Shown: piece after piece, positions 38,236-43,260 of the stretch | Numbering within the stretch: position 1 is the first letter of the stretch | Layout of the letters: each line of letters opens with the position of its first letter | Source: Mesorhizobium loti | Lineage (GTDB): Bacteria > Pseudomonadota > Alphaproteobacteria > Rhizobiales > Rhizobiaceae | Assembly: GCA_002356515.1 (NCBI GenBank) | Contig: AP017605.1 | Span: 5,255,020 to 5,319,019, forward strand | DNA length: 64,000 bases | Direction of reading: 5' to 3' | Position numbers and translations under genes: made by a program | The notes under the pieces: model-generated | Seen by the model: the letters and a program-made list of their open reading frames with translations, nothing else | Database searches by the model: none | Told to the model about the DNA's origin: nothing

Positions 38236-38499
38236 AGCCGTTTCTCATCTTGATGTTAGCTCCATACCTGCCGCGCTCTCCTATGTCTCTGATCTTCAAC
38301 TGTCGCGGCGCAACTTGTATTTCCGTCGTGCCAATTAGCCTGTGTACAATAGTCTCCATGGAAGCGCGCACGGGTGCGCTTTATTGGGGCGCTGTTGGCG
38401 AAGGGCGGATTTGGTCGGCGCATCTGGTGCAGGTGTTCGATTCCACCCGTAGTGCGCGCCACGTCTCCGCCCTCGCCGCCGGCTTCATCTCGCTTCAAT

Positions 38500-39038
38500 C
38501 CACACGGTCCTAAGGCTTGCGCACTATTGTCCATGAGTTTTTGAGACATGTGGGTGTATTCGAGGGCGTAACGGCGGGCGTATCCCTGCAGGTTGCCCTC
38601 GGCCTCGGACAGTGCATCGACATCGAGGATGGTGCGCCATTGCGGCTTGCCTGACCTGTAGGATTCCCAGTTCGCACGCCGCCACAAGGCTTGCACGTGC
38701 GTCCCGTCCTGCCAGAGTTGTCGATCATGTCGCCTTGCGCAAGGGGGCGAAGCAATACGATCGGTGGCCTGTAGGATCTTCAGAATGTCGGCTTGGTATT
38801 CTCTGTAGCGCGGATCTTTCGACAGCTTATTGACGGTCGATAGGTTATGCGCCCTGACCCAGGTCATCGCCTCGACGTCGTCGACCTCGTTCAGATAGGC
38901 GCGGGGGTCGGTGGCATCGTTAGGAGCCTCGTTGGGGTTGGAACCGATCGCCTCGGCGATGGTGGTCATCTGGGGCTGGGCGGAAGCCGTCATGGCGGTC
39001 GCCGTAGCTAAGGCCGTCGCCGTCATTAAGCTGTTCAT
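38500..39038 (-). pseudogene. Prolyl oligopeptidase (S9A), truncated N-terminal remnant
   Basis: It starts with a signal peptide (MNSLMTATALATATAMTASA) and continues DPRAYLNEVDDVEAMTWVRA, LWRRANWESYRSGKPQW and RTILDVDALSEAEG, the start of the beta-propeller of family S9A. The frame is disrupted around the segment following DRIASP, and the remaining ~500 residues with the Ser-Asp-His triad are missing. It lies upstream of, and divergent from, the RiPP precursor gene, so it may once have been its processing protease (inference). Confidence 0.75.
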
Positions 39039-39244
39039 AGATGTACTGCTGATGGTTAGCTCTTTCGAAAGCCTCGAAAAACGTAGCCGAAGCGATGGAA
39101 ATGAACCGCTTCGCCTCTTCTAGGCAAGAGCTGTGCCAGTAAGACACGCTTGAATTCAATGGATTATTCTGGGGCGGTGGGCGGCCGTCTAGGATAAGTC
39201 GCACCGTAATTGTCGCAAGCGCGACACGCTTGTCGCTTGGGAGC

Positions 39245-39460: not shown

Positions 39461-39514
39461 GTGAGAGCGAGATGGCTGGATAGCTCGGACACTGAGCAGA
39501 GGCGGGAATTAGCT

Positions 39515-39904
39515 ATGGCGCGAGCTGACGTAGAGCGATTCATCAACGAGTTGGGAAAAAAAGGCAGTCCGCTTGAAAACCTCAAACGGCGTGCTGGAGG
39601 GCTTGCATCGATTGTAGAATTTGCAAACGACCTCGACTACAACATCACACTCGACGAGGTTAAAGGTTTTATCCGATCGAACAGCCGAGAAAAACCAAAT
39701 AGCAAGAAGCTTCGCGCGACTGCGGGCCGCAAGGGTGGTTCGAGTGTTTCGACCTTGACCAGCCTTGTACACACCAATGCGTTGGCTAATTGCGCTCCGT
39801 GTACGTCCATGAGCCCTGTTAAAGTCGATGGAAAAACTGCAGCGGTCGCGGTCGCGGTCGCGGTCGTTGTCGTTGTTGTGATAGTTGTAGCTGTCGCGAG
39901 CTAG
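39515..39904 (+). CDS. Nif11-type RiPP precursor peptide with Val/Ala core
   Basis: A 129-residue precursor. Residues 1-55 (MARADVERFINELGKKGSPL, then RAGGLASIVEFANDLDY and ITLDEVKGFI) match the Nif11 leader domain that docks RiPP-modifying enzymes. A Gly-Gly at 74-75 (GRKGG) is a likely leader cleavage site. The following part has a CAPC pair at 93-96 and KVDGK at 103-107. It ends in a run of twenty residues of only Ala, Val and one Ile before a final Ser, alternating Ala-Val at first. The ATG at 39515 has only a weak ribosome site; the frame opens at 39389. A PoyD-type epimerase gene starts 42 bases after the stop. The product was not recognised as a known RiPP. Confidence 0.8.
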   Translation: MARADVERFINELGKKGSPLENLKRRAGGLASIVEFANDLDYNITLDEVKGFIRSNSREKPNSKKLRATAGRKGGSSVSTLTSLVHTNALANCAPCTSMSPVKVDGKTAAVAVAVAVVVVVVIVVAVAS

Positions 39905-39945
39905 CTCTGATCGCATTGGCTCGAAGGAGCCGGTCTGAAGAGAAC

Positions 39946-41463
39946 ATGATCGCAAAGCTTGTCAACGAGATAATGCCATCAGGCGGACAAGGGACCGCTG
40001 CAAGGGCTCATCTCTACCCTCGGAGCGAACGCTGGCGGCAGATTTTTGATCGGCGCACGCCTAAGGAACGGCGCAGTTTGTCACATATCAAGCGCTTCAT
40101 GGAGCGGCTGGCCGGTGATGGGAAATTCCGTACGGCGCTTTCCGAGAACCTCGACAACCCTCGGATAGTGACCGCGCGATACGGCATCGAAGTTGACCCA
40201 ATGGAGATGCTGCCGCTCTGGTGCGGTGACTACCTGAAGTATCGCTTCAAGCCGGAGTCTGCCCCGTGGCCGCTGGCTATGATGTGGGATGAGTATACGC
40301 GGGAGATGTTGCGCCATCGCGACCTCCTGCGCGGCCAAGGCGAAATGTCGACTATCAATCCTCGCTTTCATGCCTGGCGCGAGCGCCAAATCCGGCGCTG
40401 TAACGACGAAATGGGCGAATTGGCGCCGTCAATCGCGCACTCTGTCATCGCTTTCGAGCTGAGCGAAGGCTGCACCGTCGGTTGCTGGTTCTGTGGCCTC
40501 TCGGCGGGTACCTTCAAAGGTTACTATGAATACACTGAGGAGCATGCAGAGGTTTGGCGCGGCGTGCTCCGTGCGGCGAGCGAAATGTTTGGTTCGGCAG
40601 TCCGCACTGGCTTCTGTTACTGGGCCACAGACCCGATCGACAACCCGGAGTACGACCGTTTTCTGTTCGACTACCATCAGATCACGGGCGAATTGCCACA
40701 AACGACGACGGCGGCCCCGCTCAAGGATCAGGCACTCACCAACCGCGTGCTCGAACTGTTCGAACGCTACGGTCGCGTGACCAATCGTTTCTCAGTGCTA
40801 AGCACGGACCATCTTAATCAGATACACGCGGCGTTTTCGCCCGAGGACCTGATGGGGGTCGAACTCATCCTGCAGGGCAAGGACGGGCCGACCGCAAAGG
40901 CTTTCACCGGGCGCGCACGAGCGCGGAAGGAGAAACTCAGGGCAGCCGGCAAAGACGCCGCAATCGCCGTGCCGGAGGGCTGTCCCACGACAATCGCCTG
41001 TGTTTCTGGCTTTCTCGTGAACATGCGGCAGGGACGTTTACAACTGGTGACGCCGGTACCGGGTAGCGAACGCTGGCCTCTCGGGTACCGAATCGTGGCT
41101 CAACGTTTCTTCAGCACGCCCGACGAGTTCCGGGAAGGTCTCGATAGCATCATCGACGAGAATATGCTCGAAAGCCCCCCTCCCAACCGGCCAATTCGCT
41201 TCCGCGGAGACCTGCAATACGAGGCAGGGGACCACTGCTTCCATCTCCGCTCACGCAACAGTGAGCATCGAGTGCTCGACGGGGTGGTTCCGATTCCCAT
41301 TGGCCATCTAATCGCGAGCGGGAACTGTACAGCCTCGGAGCTGATTATGCGGGCCACGGACGGAGCGAGCGTCCTTGCAGTCGCCGACTTGCTCGATCAG
41401 CTATACGCGGCTGGGGTGATCGAAGAGGACCTCGACGACATTTCGCTTGGCAAAACGGGATGA
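39946..41463 (+). CDS. PoyD-type radical SAM peptide epimerase
   Basis: A 505-residue enzyme of the radical SAM RiPP-maturation epimerase family (PoyD, OspD, AvpD), which turn L- into D-residues in a core peptide. It has FELSEGCTVGCWFCGLSAG with the cluster Cys at 176, 180 and 183, the family segment TGFCYWATDPIDNPEYD, and PEGCPTTIACVSGFLVNM with cysteines that could supply the H atom. The C-terminal ~60 residues form a helical/winged domain (PIGHLIASGNCTASELIM). I start at the ATG at 39946; a TTG at 39916 is possible. It lies next to the Nif11-type precursor, so the Val/Ala core is its likely substrate. Confidence 0.85.
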   Translation: MIAKLVNEIMPSGGQGTAARAHLYPRSERWRQIFDRRTPKERRSLSHIKRFMERLAGDGKFRTALSENLDNPRIVTARYGIEVDPMEMLPLWCGDYLKYRFKPESAPWPLAMMWDEYTREMLRHRDLLRGQGEMSTINPRFHAWRERQIRRCNDEMGELAPSIAHSVIAFELSEGCTVGCWFCGLSAGTFKGYYEYTEEHAEVWRGVLRAASEMFGSAVRTGFCYWATDPIDNPEYDRFLFDYHQITGELPQTTTAAPLKDQALTNRVLELFERYGRVTNRFSVLSTDHLNQIHAAFSPEDLMGVELILQGKDGPTAKAFTGRARARKEKLRAAGKDAAIAVPEGCPTTIACVSGFLVNMRQGRLQLVTPVPGSERWPLGYRIVAQRFFSTPDEFREGLDSIIDENMLESPPPNRPIRFRGDLQYEAGDHCFHLRSRNSEHRVLDGVVPIPIGHLIASGNCTASELIMRATDGASVLAVADLLDQLYAAGVIEEDLDDISLGKTG

Positions 41464-41649
41464 CGGGCGCGGGCCGCGGGCTTTTTTGTCCGCAACGCCA
41501 CTGCCCTGCGTCCCGCTCGGGTGAAGCGGGCTATCGCGGCCGGCCTCGACGAAATCGAGGTGCTCGCCGAAGGCTTCGCCAATGACAATGGCGCCAAGCT
41601 TACCGGACCGCTCTATGCCGACGGTTGGCATTGAAGTCATTGGCGAGCC

Positions 41650-41800
41650 AGGCCGGCGTGGCGTTCCCCTCACGGATCATCTGGTCCCACCTCCAGGTCA
41701 TCGAACGCGATGTTGCCCGCTCGGCTCTCGCGAATGAAGGCGTGAAGCGGCTGATGACCATTCCCGGCGGGGCTGCGAAGCCCCTGAGCCACGCGACCGA
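41650..41800 (+). pseudogene. IS110-family transposase scrap
   Basis: The segment [20 protein letters not shown] followed by TIPGG resembles the start of the C-terminal domain of IS110-type transposases ('...ca.RLmtiPGvG'). It runs in frame into the nodF relic, so an insertion has replaced the nodF 5' end. Confidence 0.5.
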
Positions 41801-41815
41801 AAGCGGCGCAACAGG

Positions 41816-42049
41816 GAACCGCGTCGAATCGGAGAGCGGCGAGAGCGTGTCCACCATCGGCGAAATAACGACTGCCACGGAACTGACCTCGCTCGGAGTC
41901 GATTCGCTGGGTCTGGCGGATCTCCTCTGGGATGTGGAGCAGGCCTACGACATCAAGATCGACATGACGCGGCTGACGCCTGGTCGAATCTCAAGAATGT
42001 CGGCGACATGGTGGAAGCCGTCCGCGGTTTGCTCGCGAAGGAGGTCTGA
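41816..42049 (+). pseudogene. nodF: nodF relic (acyl carrier protein), frameshifted
   Basis: [20 protein letters not shown] with the phosphopantetheine Ser (DSLG), then [16 protein letters not shown], is the NodF carrier pattern. After a frameshift near 41983 the other frame continues [19 protein letters not shown] with KEV and a stop, the expected NodF end. The first ~20 codons are lost. NodF carries the polyunsaturated acyl chain of some Nod factors. Confidence 0.85.
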
Positions 42050-43260
42050 TTGGACAGGCGAGTCGTCATTACTGGGATAGGGGGGCTTTGCGGCTAGGCA
42101 ACAACGCCGCCTCTATCTGGAAAGAGATGCGCGAAGGTCGCTCCGCCATCCGCCCGATGGTCACTTCCGCGCTTCATGAGATGAAGGGGACTGTCGGTAC
42201 CGAGATCAAGGAGCTGCCCCAGCACGACATCGGCCGCAACCAGCTCGTCTCCAGGACCGCCACAGCTTGCTCGCTGTGCTTGCAGCGCGTGAAGCCATGC
42301 AGCACGCCGGACTTTCCTGCGATAAGGGAAATCCGTATCGCTTCGGCGCGACAGTGGGCGTCTGCGGCTGGGGCTGGGGAACGGTCGAAGAAACCTACCG
42401 TGACCTCCTTTTGGGCGGCGCGAAGCGTGCTGGCATTTACACTGCACCAAGGGGGTTGCCGAGCGCCGCTGCCAGCCAGGTCAGCATGAGTCTCGGCCTG
42501 CGCGGCCCGGTCTTTGCCATCGCCTCCGCATGCGCATCAGCCAACCATGCGATCGCTTCGGCCGCGGATCAGATCAAGCTCGGCCGGGCCGACGTGATGC
42601 TTGCCGGAGGCGCCGAAGCGCCGCTCGTATGCCTTCAGATGAAGGTATGGGAAGCAATGCGCGCGCTCGCTCCAGATACGTGCCGGCCGGCCCTTCTCCG
42701 CCGACAGGAAGGGAGTGGTGATAGGCGAGGGTGCGGGCATGGCCGTGCTGGAAAGCTATGAGCATGCCGCCGTGCGCGGTGCCACAATCCTTGCCGAGAT
42801 CGCAGGCATCGGCCTTTCCGGCGACGCCTTCCACATCGTCGCGCCGTCTGTCGAGGGGCCGGAGGCCGCGATCCGCGCTTGCCTTGCCGACGCCGGGCTG
42901 AATGCGGAGGACGTGGACTACCTAAACGCCCACGGCACCGGCACCAAGGCCAACGATCAGACTGAGACGGCGGCGATCAAGCGCGTCTTCGGAGACTATG
43001 CCTATTCGATGTCTGTCTCGTCCACCAAGTCCATGTACGCGCATTGCCTGGGCGCAGCGAGCGCACTTGAAATGATCGCCTCCGTGATGGCGATCCAGGA
43101 GGGCATTGTGCCGCCGACCGCGAACTATCGCGAGCCAGACCCCGATTGCGACCTCGACGTCACGCCCAATGTGGCGCGCGAGCGCAAGGTCCGCGTGGCA
43201 CTGAGCAACGCTTTCGCCATGGGCGGCATGAACGCAGTTCTGGCGTTCAAGCAAGTGTAG
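42050..43260 (+). pseudogene. nodE: nodE relic (beta-ketoacyl synthase), three frameshifts
   Basis: A TTG at 42050 one base past the nodF stop opens [14 protein letters not shown]. Shifts near 42094, 42255 and 42700 then move the reading through other frames. Together they give a full NodE-like synthase: [19 protein letters not shown] with the active Cys, [14 protein letters not shown] with the first His, and [18 protein letters not shown] with the second His region (Ala replaces the usual Gly in SxxKsxxGH), ending [17 protein letters not shown]. The gene is full-length but cannot be translated as one protein. Confidence 0.9.

Follow-up and report, generated by a model that had tools for sequence, protein, structure and literature searches.

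What can a nodule bacterium make from a peptide that ends in nothing but alanine, valine and isoleucine before a closing serine, when a single modifying enzyme is encoded beside it? The question was raised by two adjacent genes of Mesorhizobium loti, located in a stretch of contig AP017605.1 (assembly GCA_002356515.1, forward-strand positions 5,255,020 to 5,319,019), which we call the window and which is 64,000 nucleotides long. The first gene encodes a Nif11-related precursor peptide and the second a radical SAM epimerase of the PoyD type. The explanation that we favor as a whole, with a probability of about 0.7, is a minimal unit for a ribosomally synthesized and post-translationally modified peptide (RiPP), reduced from a fuller cluster, expressed in the nodules of relatives and without its promoter in the window. 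Related loci are designated below by L numbers and genomes by G numbers. The features of the pair are as follows.

39515 to 39904, plus strand: precursor peptide gene, 129 amino acids (Nif11-related leader, linker, Val/Ala/Ile tail), from the open reading frame (ORF), the Nif11 profile, homologues and a 17-sequence alignment.
39839 to 39901, plus strand: presumed core tail, 20 Ala/Val/Ile residues and Ser, from the ORF, codons, frame survey, alignment and relatives that lost the linker.
39842 to 39865, plus strand: hexamer repeat (GCGGTC)x4 encoding (Ala-Val)x4, from codon comparison.
39946 to 41463, plus strand: intact PoyD-type radical SAM RiPP epimerase, 505 amino acids, from its TIGR04517 profile match.
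40471 to 40494, plus strand: CX3CX2C [4Fe-4S] motif (C176, C180, C183), invariant in 33/33 aligned homologues.
40999 to 41001, plus strand: C352, an invariant Cys outside the cluster motif (same alignment) and candidate H-atom donor by analogy with PoyD Cys372.

The enzyme starts 41 nt after the end of the precursor gene and has 505 residues when counted from its ATG, an upstream TTG at 39916 being a possible alternative start. It covers positions 1–446 of the 446 in the TIGR04517 profile (rSAM_PoyD) with 551.2 bits, against a cut-off of 325, and is the single match in its own 8.45-Mb genome (E up to 0.001). By this match the enzyme is a member of the PoyD family, and the original prediction of such an epimerase directly behind the precursor is borne out. 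Cysteines C176, C180, C183, C224 and C352 were invariant in all 33 enzymes aligned, two of which are cyanobacterial; this alignment and its tree were built without the broken or partial copies (L071, L073–L079) and the duplicates (L040, L055, L080, L081). C352 is a candidate H-atom donor, C224 being likewise invariant, and may correspond in role to Cys372 of PoyD, whose sequence lay outside the 33-row alignment. A sequence search of the PDB returned only a chance-level match (E 0.88).

Passages of PMC8326336 report that the strictly conserved Cys372 is the H-atom donor of PoyD, that PoyD carries a C-terminal RiPP recognition element (RRE), that its activity is apparently leader-independent and that it epimerizes every second residue, beginning at the C-terminal end. 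According to the same passages, further proteusin epimerases perform a limited number of epimerizations, and epimerized Val and Ile have been reported in PlpA. By analogy, the enzyme of the window would invert the alpha-carbons of Val, Ala and Ile in the precursor tail to the D configuration, with or without the help of the leader. EpeE (YydG) of Bacillus, also described there, shares the radical SAM epimerization of Val and Ile in a hydrophobic peptide but differs in having no significant homology to the proteusin epimerases, two clusters and a 32-residue leader (PMC8326336).

In the tree, the window enzyme lies on one side of a branch with 100/100 support. Judged by tree and gene content, this side, which we call form A, is a single clade of loci pared down to two genes, and the window locus is one of them. 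Other form-A pairs in Mesorhizobium (including G019) and in S. fredii NGR234 show the same organization, and the enzyme of L070 is 100% identical to that of the window; they differ in tail length, which varies with the number of hexamer copies, and in keeping a promoter-like site that is absent from the window.

Precursor residues 109–128 are exclusively Ala, Val or Ile and are followed by Ser129 and the stop codon, so the twenty-residue tail of the original prediction is present as described. Such a tail (at least 19 Ala/Val/Ile among the last 22 residues) is rare. The window and 20 related regions together contain 4265 stop-to-stop open frames with 60 or more codons, and the 3 that have it all encode this same precursor (window, L070 and L079). 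The earlier suggestion that alternating Ala and Val reflects a design of alternating L- and D-residues was rejected. The alternating stretch is a variable-copy GCGGTC repeat and no conserved pattern: residues 110–117 are a perfect (GCGGTC)x4, alternation is restricted to this block, and near-identical alleles carry 4 copies (window, L012, L023, L030), 3 (L013) or 2 (L015, L031, L040, L046). The tail as a whole is not one simple DNA repeat, since the Val run behind the hexamers mixes GTC, GTT, GTG and GTA.

If the alternation is a repeat, the tail might be a mere membrane anchor or repeat artefact, the epimerase acting elsewhere or on the linker; in line with this, leader and linker are likewise conserved between near relatives. 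We consider this improbable. L044, L045 and L059 (S. americanum) retain the Val-rich tail, beside an open epimerase gene, although the linker that separates it from the leader is almost completely gone, and the residues epimerized in PlpA include Val and Ile, as cited above. When the final 13 codons were compared among nine form-A precursors, the nonsynonymous rate (dN) was below the synonymous rate (dS) in 8/8 pairs with the window and in 29/36 pairs overall, dN equalling or exceeding dS in the other 7/36, in what is a small sample of codons. Further form-A tails end in AVVIVIVIAIAVAS, AVVIVVVVVVFVAT or AVVLLVVVVVAVAT, and those of S. fredii in AVVQLVVIVVHVSS; form-A tails thus tolerate Phe, Gln and His. 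These comparisons suggest that the Val/Ala/Ile tail is the core, that is, the substrate of the epimerase. An antisense ORF of 148 amino acids (window 39509–39955, minus strand) overlies the precursor gene; it mirrors the repetitive codons, and we see no reason to call it a gene.

The Nif11 nature of the leader, also part of the original prediction, holds through homologues and not through the protein's own score. The window precursor aligns over residues 1–48 with positions 1–47 of the 48 in the Nif11 profile (PF07862) at 14.9 bits, below the cut-off of 23.8, and has no TIGR03798 match at E up to 1. Among the 17 aligned precursors, 14 match PF07862 and 9 match TIGR03798 (E up to 0.1). The precursor of L082, to which that of the window is 45% identical over the first 94 amino acids, exceeds the cut-off of a Nif11-type model (35.5 bits versus 32.3). 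The window protein can be called Nif11-related because these homologues match. No nitrile-hydratase alpha-like leader was matched by the window precursor in Pfam or NCBIfam at E up to 1, and a search of its own genome for a second Nif11 precursor yielded one weak match (14.3 bits). The double-glycine motif is absent in form A: the GGK of L036, L038 and L082 aligns with GRK, CRN, ARK or NSK, the residues at the leader-end GG position being GR, CR, AR, SR or NS, and the GG of the window precursor sits two residues beyond the aligned GGK position. The leader-end GG is present in the Mesorhizobium/Aminobacter cluster precursors (L036, L082, L061–L064, L074/L076), in L038 and in L057, and is also missing from the non-A precursors of L037, L039, L041 and L042.

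Fuller clusters were surveyed by searching the related regions with the Aminobacter cluster in tblastn. The epimerase has as its neighbor a B12 radical SAM C-methyltransferase in L061, L064, L036, L074, L076, L037, L039, L041, L042, L056, L057, L081 and L082, a whole GNAT in L061, L064, L036, L074, L076, L081 and L082 (with GNAT pieces in L062 and L057), and an NHLP secretion protein with a peptidase-transporter and a second ABC transporter in L061, L064/L081 and L082, and partly in L062. The full cluster is carried by Aminobacter and Mesorhizobium L-2-11 plasmids. In the scanned stretches of the form-A loci, no GNAT, C-methyltransferase or NHLP-type exporter was found, the exception being the truncated copy L075/L033 with an ABC transporter, 25–27% identical, about 3 kb off. 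Beside the window pair no other maturation enzyme was found, in keeping with the original prediction. A C-methyltransferase or NHLP exporter elsewhere in its own genome was considered and dismissed, as none exceeded the cut-off (best NHLP exporter score, 352.7 of 853.3 bits). L038 and L060 also had no C-methyltransferase in the stretches scanned, yet fall outside the form-A clade. Read most simply, this distribution would make the fuller form the ancestral one and form A a reduced version.

Compared with the clusters of Mesorhizobium L-2-11 and Aminobacter SS-2016 (Nif11 precursor, epimerase, GNAT, C-methyltransferase and NHLP exporter, with partial forms in M. huakuii 7653R, R. leguminosarum and S. 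meliloti), the window pair has a homologous precursor and an epimerase 63–79% identical by tblastn, and those clusters mostly have a sigma54-type promoter. They differ in their further enzymes, in the exporter (L-2-11, Aminobacter and G016), in the GG motif of the Mesorhizobium/Aminobacter members and in the tail. In the poy system with PoyD, and in the cyanobacterial OspD, AvpD and PlpD systems, the enzymes share TIGR04517 membership, CX3CX2C with extra invariant cysteines and branched-chain substrate residues with ours, and, as in many relatives of the window pair, a B12 radical SAM C-methyltransferase adjoins the epimerase. Unlike theirs, which is nitrile-hydratase-like, the leader here is Nif11-related; form A has one modifying enzyme, a 20-residue tail and no exporter found, and the relatives of the window pair have sigma54-type promoters. 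Two further arrangements were observed. In S. meliloti pHRB800, a single epimerase follows a tandem array of four Nif11 precursors, one of them split (L039 5659–7936); the three intact ones have a sigma54-type site within 200 nt before the first only. An S46 family peptidase gene (Dpp7-like, 370.6 bits, below the model cut-off) precedes the full cluster of L-2-11, Aminobacter and G016 (L081 2442–4613 and L082 3771–5942).

The probable origin of form A is a fuller alphaproteobacterial cluster with a GG-site precursor, epimerase, GNAT, B12 radical SAM C-methyltransferase and NHLP exporter. Because neither a dedicated exporter nor a GG site was found, the product of form A most likely remains cell-associated and moves into membranes, and would probably be an epimerized hydrophobic peptide retained there. 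A different fate was also weighed, namely that every second tail residue is inverted and that the peptide forms a gramicidin- or polytheonamide-like beta-helix which spans membranes and kills or permeabilizes competitors. PoyD itself works on every second residue (PMC8326336), the tail is purely hydrophobic, and every hexamer lengthens the tail by exactly one dipeptide, so that an L/D register would be preserved. Such a channel is possible in principle, yet we regard it as unlikely, as the tail is short for a beta-helix, does not alternate outside the repeat and has no known activity. About 20 residues in a gramicidin-type helix span some 18–20 Angstrom, so that a dimer would be needed. The limited epimerizations of other proteusin enzymes, the missing NHLP exporter both beside form A and in the genome, and the Gln and His in S. 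fredii tails also speak against it, and the promoters of relatives, described below, would point to bacteroids over competition in soil.

The pair had been thought foreign to rhizobial symbiosis regions. It proved common there, and where plasmid copies are annotated, most already bear the name 'radical SAM family RiPP maturation amino acid epimerase'. The search across Mesorhizobium that had been proposed gave a TIGR04517 match in 22/146 genomes at E up to 0.001 (18 over the cut-off). These matches were found in 22/97 genomes with nifH over the cut-off and in 0/49 of the remaining ones (Fisher p = 1e-4), and about 78 kb separate the pair from nifH in the window genome. In wider samples, each including the own genome, TIGR04517 was matched in 7/394 genomes of the family (6 over the cut-off), 4/397 of the order (1 over) and 7/385 of the class (3 over). 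Among 72,556 plasmid records, 60 had a relative, 58 of them rhizobial, and in 43 a single place accounted for 80% or more of the query; by genus the 60 were Sinorhizobium 28, Rhizobium 24, Mesorhizobium 5 and Aminobacter 1, with 2 in cyanobacteria. Of 17 plasmid records examined, 12 carried a nifH over the cut-off (11/15 rhizobial ones). In three other alphaproteobacteria (G1258, G1111, G1277), the enzymes are 48–49% identical, one being partial, and accompany precursors with AGGKGHHHH, with a GNAT in two. The literature searched, which had few subscription papers, contained no characterized rhizobial peptide epimerase.

The original prediction overlooked a sigma54-type promoter that precedes the pair in relatives and is deleted in the window allele. 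We scanned for -24/-12 sites with a sigma54 consensus and our own weights, using dinucleotide-shuffled controls. In form A, 15 of 16 distinct upstream sequences have such a site, 71–98 nt ahead of the precursor ATG, 12 of the 15 with a shuffle p of 0.003–0.010 each and those of L009, L063 and L068 added without this control. Not counted in the tally are the tandem precursors that lie downstream in L039 and L043 (10 nt of upstream sequence), nor L075, L077 and L078, which gave no complete precursor. The lone exception is the upstream sequence common to the window and L079. Outside form A, 8/12 first-gene upstreams have a site within 200 nt, and 3/12 (L037, L041 and L056, three Rhizobium loci) have TTGGCACGAATCTTGAG 358–552 nt upstream. 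In L037 and L056 it stands about 100 nt before a truncated nifH start; for L041 a nifH start was searched and none was found. A TGT-N10-ACA site lies about 100 nt further upstream of it in L037 and L041. We read TTGGCACGAATCTTGAG at these three loci as a captured nifH-type promoter. Truncated nifH starts occur near the precursor in inverted pairs in R. johnstonii 3841 pRL10 (L037 7228–7323 and 5804–5709) and in R. sullae (L056 4110–4205 and 2684–2589), which suggests capture of the nifH promoter by neighboring operons. TGT-N10-ACA, a motif scanned without shuffle control, lies upstream of some promoters and not of all (for L069, 219 nt were available). In the passages seen of the M. loti R7A NifA regulon table (PMC3538637), there are similar -24/-12 sequences and operons behind nifH fragments, and the precursor/epimerase pair does not appear in them; no peptide epimerase appears in the part seen of the P. 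phymatum NifA article (PMC8305402). The fuller cluster would have entered rhizobial symbiosis plasmids and islands and come under promoters of the sigma54/NifA type, with NifA presumably controlling the pair in relatives, which would produce the peptide in nodule bacteroids.

Upstream of the window pair the following features were recorded.

39452/39453, plus strand: junction of a 38-bp deletion, from allele alignment; in relatives the segment holds TTGGTACGGAGCTTGCT, of the sigma54 -24/-12 type, 90 nt before the precursor ATG.
39211 to 39226, no strand assigned: TGT-N10-ACA palindrome resembling a NifA-binding site, still present (motif scan, no shuffle control).
39124 to 39138, minus strand: divergent sigma54-like site TGGCACAGCTCTTGC, facing the S9 peptidase remnant and also present in L070 (motif scan).
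38256 to 39038, minus strand: remnant of an S9 prolyl-oligopeptidase gene, 122 of 414 profile positions (profile match and locus comparison).

Over 920 aligned bases the window is 99.5–99.8% identical to L070, L031, L040, L071 and L073, minus the 38 bp. The missing segment holds the -24/-12 site, which is present in those five loci and absent from the window and L079. GAT flanks the segment on both sides in the long allele and is single in the window. The deletion is the derived state, because more distant form-A loci have the site. The best score within 200 nt in the window was 9.7 (shuffle p 0.90), and no plus-strand sigma54-type site scoring at least 12.9 was found within 1500 nt of the precursor. 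With the -24/-12 site deleted and no other found over this distance, the window pair, both genes of which are open, is probably silent in nodules, that is, not transcribed from a nitrogen-fixation promoter.

Expression evidence for relatives comes from Mesorhizobium huakuii. PMC8436566 lists a Nif11 family protein (MCHK_RS31560, -4.35 log2) and an amino acid epimerase (MCHK_RS31565, -4.46 log2) as decreased in abiEi-mutant nodules, where nif and fix genes drop too. Its table also contains another Nif11-like leader, at -6.00, together with an N-acetyltransferase at -3.22 and a 'maturation protein 1' at -3.03. The gene order tyrosinase, multicopper oxidase, Nif11, epimerase was found on CP006583 (pMHb in the record, pMHa in PMC8436566), which also carries a second epimerase copy of equal score. 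In PMC10454058, precursor MCHK_12735 is among the differential proteins of bacteroids analyzed by ultra-performance liquid chromatography-tandem mass spectrometry (UPLC-MS/MS), at 0.50 in a hypE mutant. The precursor-epimerase copy at 410 kb of M. huakuii 7653R (L107 1275–6793) adjoins divergent tyrosinase and multicopper oxidase genes, and genes so named drop strongly in abiEi-mutant nodules (PMC8436566). A text search for radical SAM and Nif11 in the portion seen of the NGR234 bacteroid transcriptome article (PMC3732241) yielded nothing.

Several points weigh against the explanation we favor. The M. huakuii data concern a non-A form with two identically scoring epimerase copies, and low expression in the abiEi mutant may reflect merely poor nodules. 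The nifH association, despite its p value, ignores relatedness among genomes, and the window precursor's own Nif11 score is under the curated cut-off. L042 has no promoter-like site in 1200 nt, and for L065, L066/L067, L072, L080, L035, L054 and L058 no TGT-N10-ACA was found close to the form-A promoter; as its basis is motifs, NifA control is inferred. A promoter of another type could serve the pair of the window. No product, D-residue or activity of any rhizobial member was found in the literature searched.

Several other copies of the pair are broken, which brings in the view that form A is what is left of the fuller system in decay and yields no product today, here and in many strains. The promoter deletion of the window is shared by L079, from another genome, in which the epimerase frame is also disrupted; in L071 and L073 the promoter is retained and the epimerase frame is changed near residues 33 and 482. 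The precursor of L063 has an internal stop, an IS5 lies between the genes of L054, and enzymes that may or may not be of form A are split or partial in G005/G008/G037, G106 and several Sinorhizobium plasmid records. We nevertheless find general decay rather doubtful: the pair is open and has its promoter site in L070, L031, L040, L065, L066, L067, L068, L072, L080, L035 and L058, dN is below dS in most tail pairs, and the tail type is common to the whole clade. A minimal unit active in relatives and lost in particular strains remains our preferred explanation.

As to the neighboring genes, the S9 prolyl-oligopeptidase remnant was considered as a leader protease and set aside, being present only in 7 loci of the window's lineage and not in the other long loci searched. 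Downstream (window 41625–43260, plus strand), an acyl-carrier domain (PF00550) is followed by a beta-ketoacyl synthase split across two frames; these ORFs, with N- and C-terminal domains apart, look like a broken ketosynthase gene.

Enzyme and precursor classes are known, and what is new is their minimal combination under apparent symbiosis control. One may tentatively go further, to a proposal that we hold possible and would not yet bet on: rhizobial bacteroids may make a NifA/sigma54-controlled, epimerized and almost purely hydrophobic ribosomal peptide acting in or across bacteroid or symbiosome membranes. It would represent an unrecognized class of D-amino-acid symbiosis factors, placed under nitrogen-fixation promoters more than once (a native -24/-12 site, and a captured nifH promoter in Rhizobium) and repeatedly lost, here by promoter deletion. 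Members occur in the model strains NGR234, R. johnstonii 3841 and M. huakuii 7653R, and probably in MAFF303099, hence experiments can decide whether the product exists and what it does, and strains can readily be compared because some natural alleles have the promoter and others lack it. If true, this would be the first D-amino-acid RiPP linked to nitrogen-fixing nodules in the literature searched.

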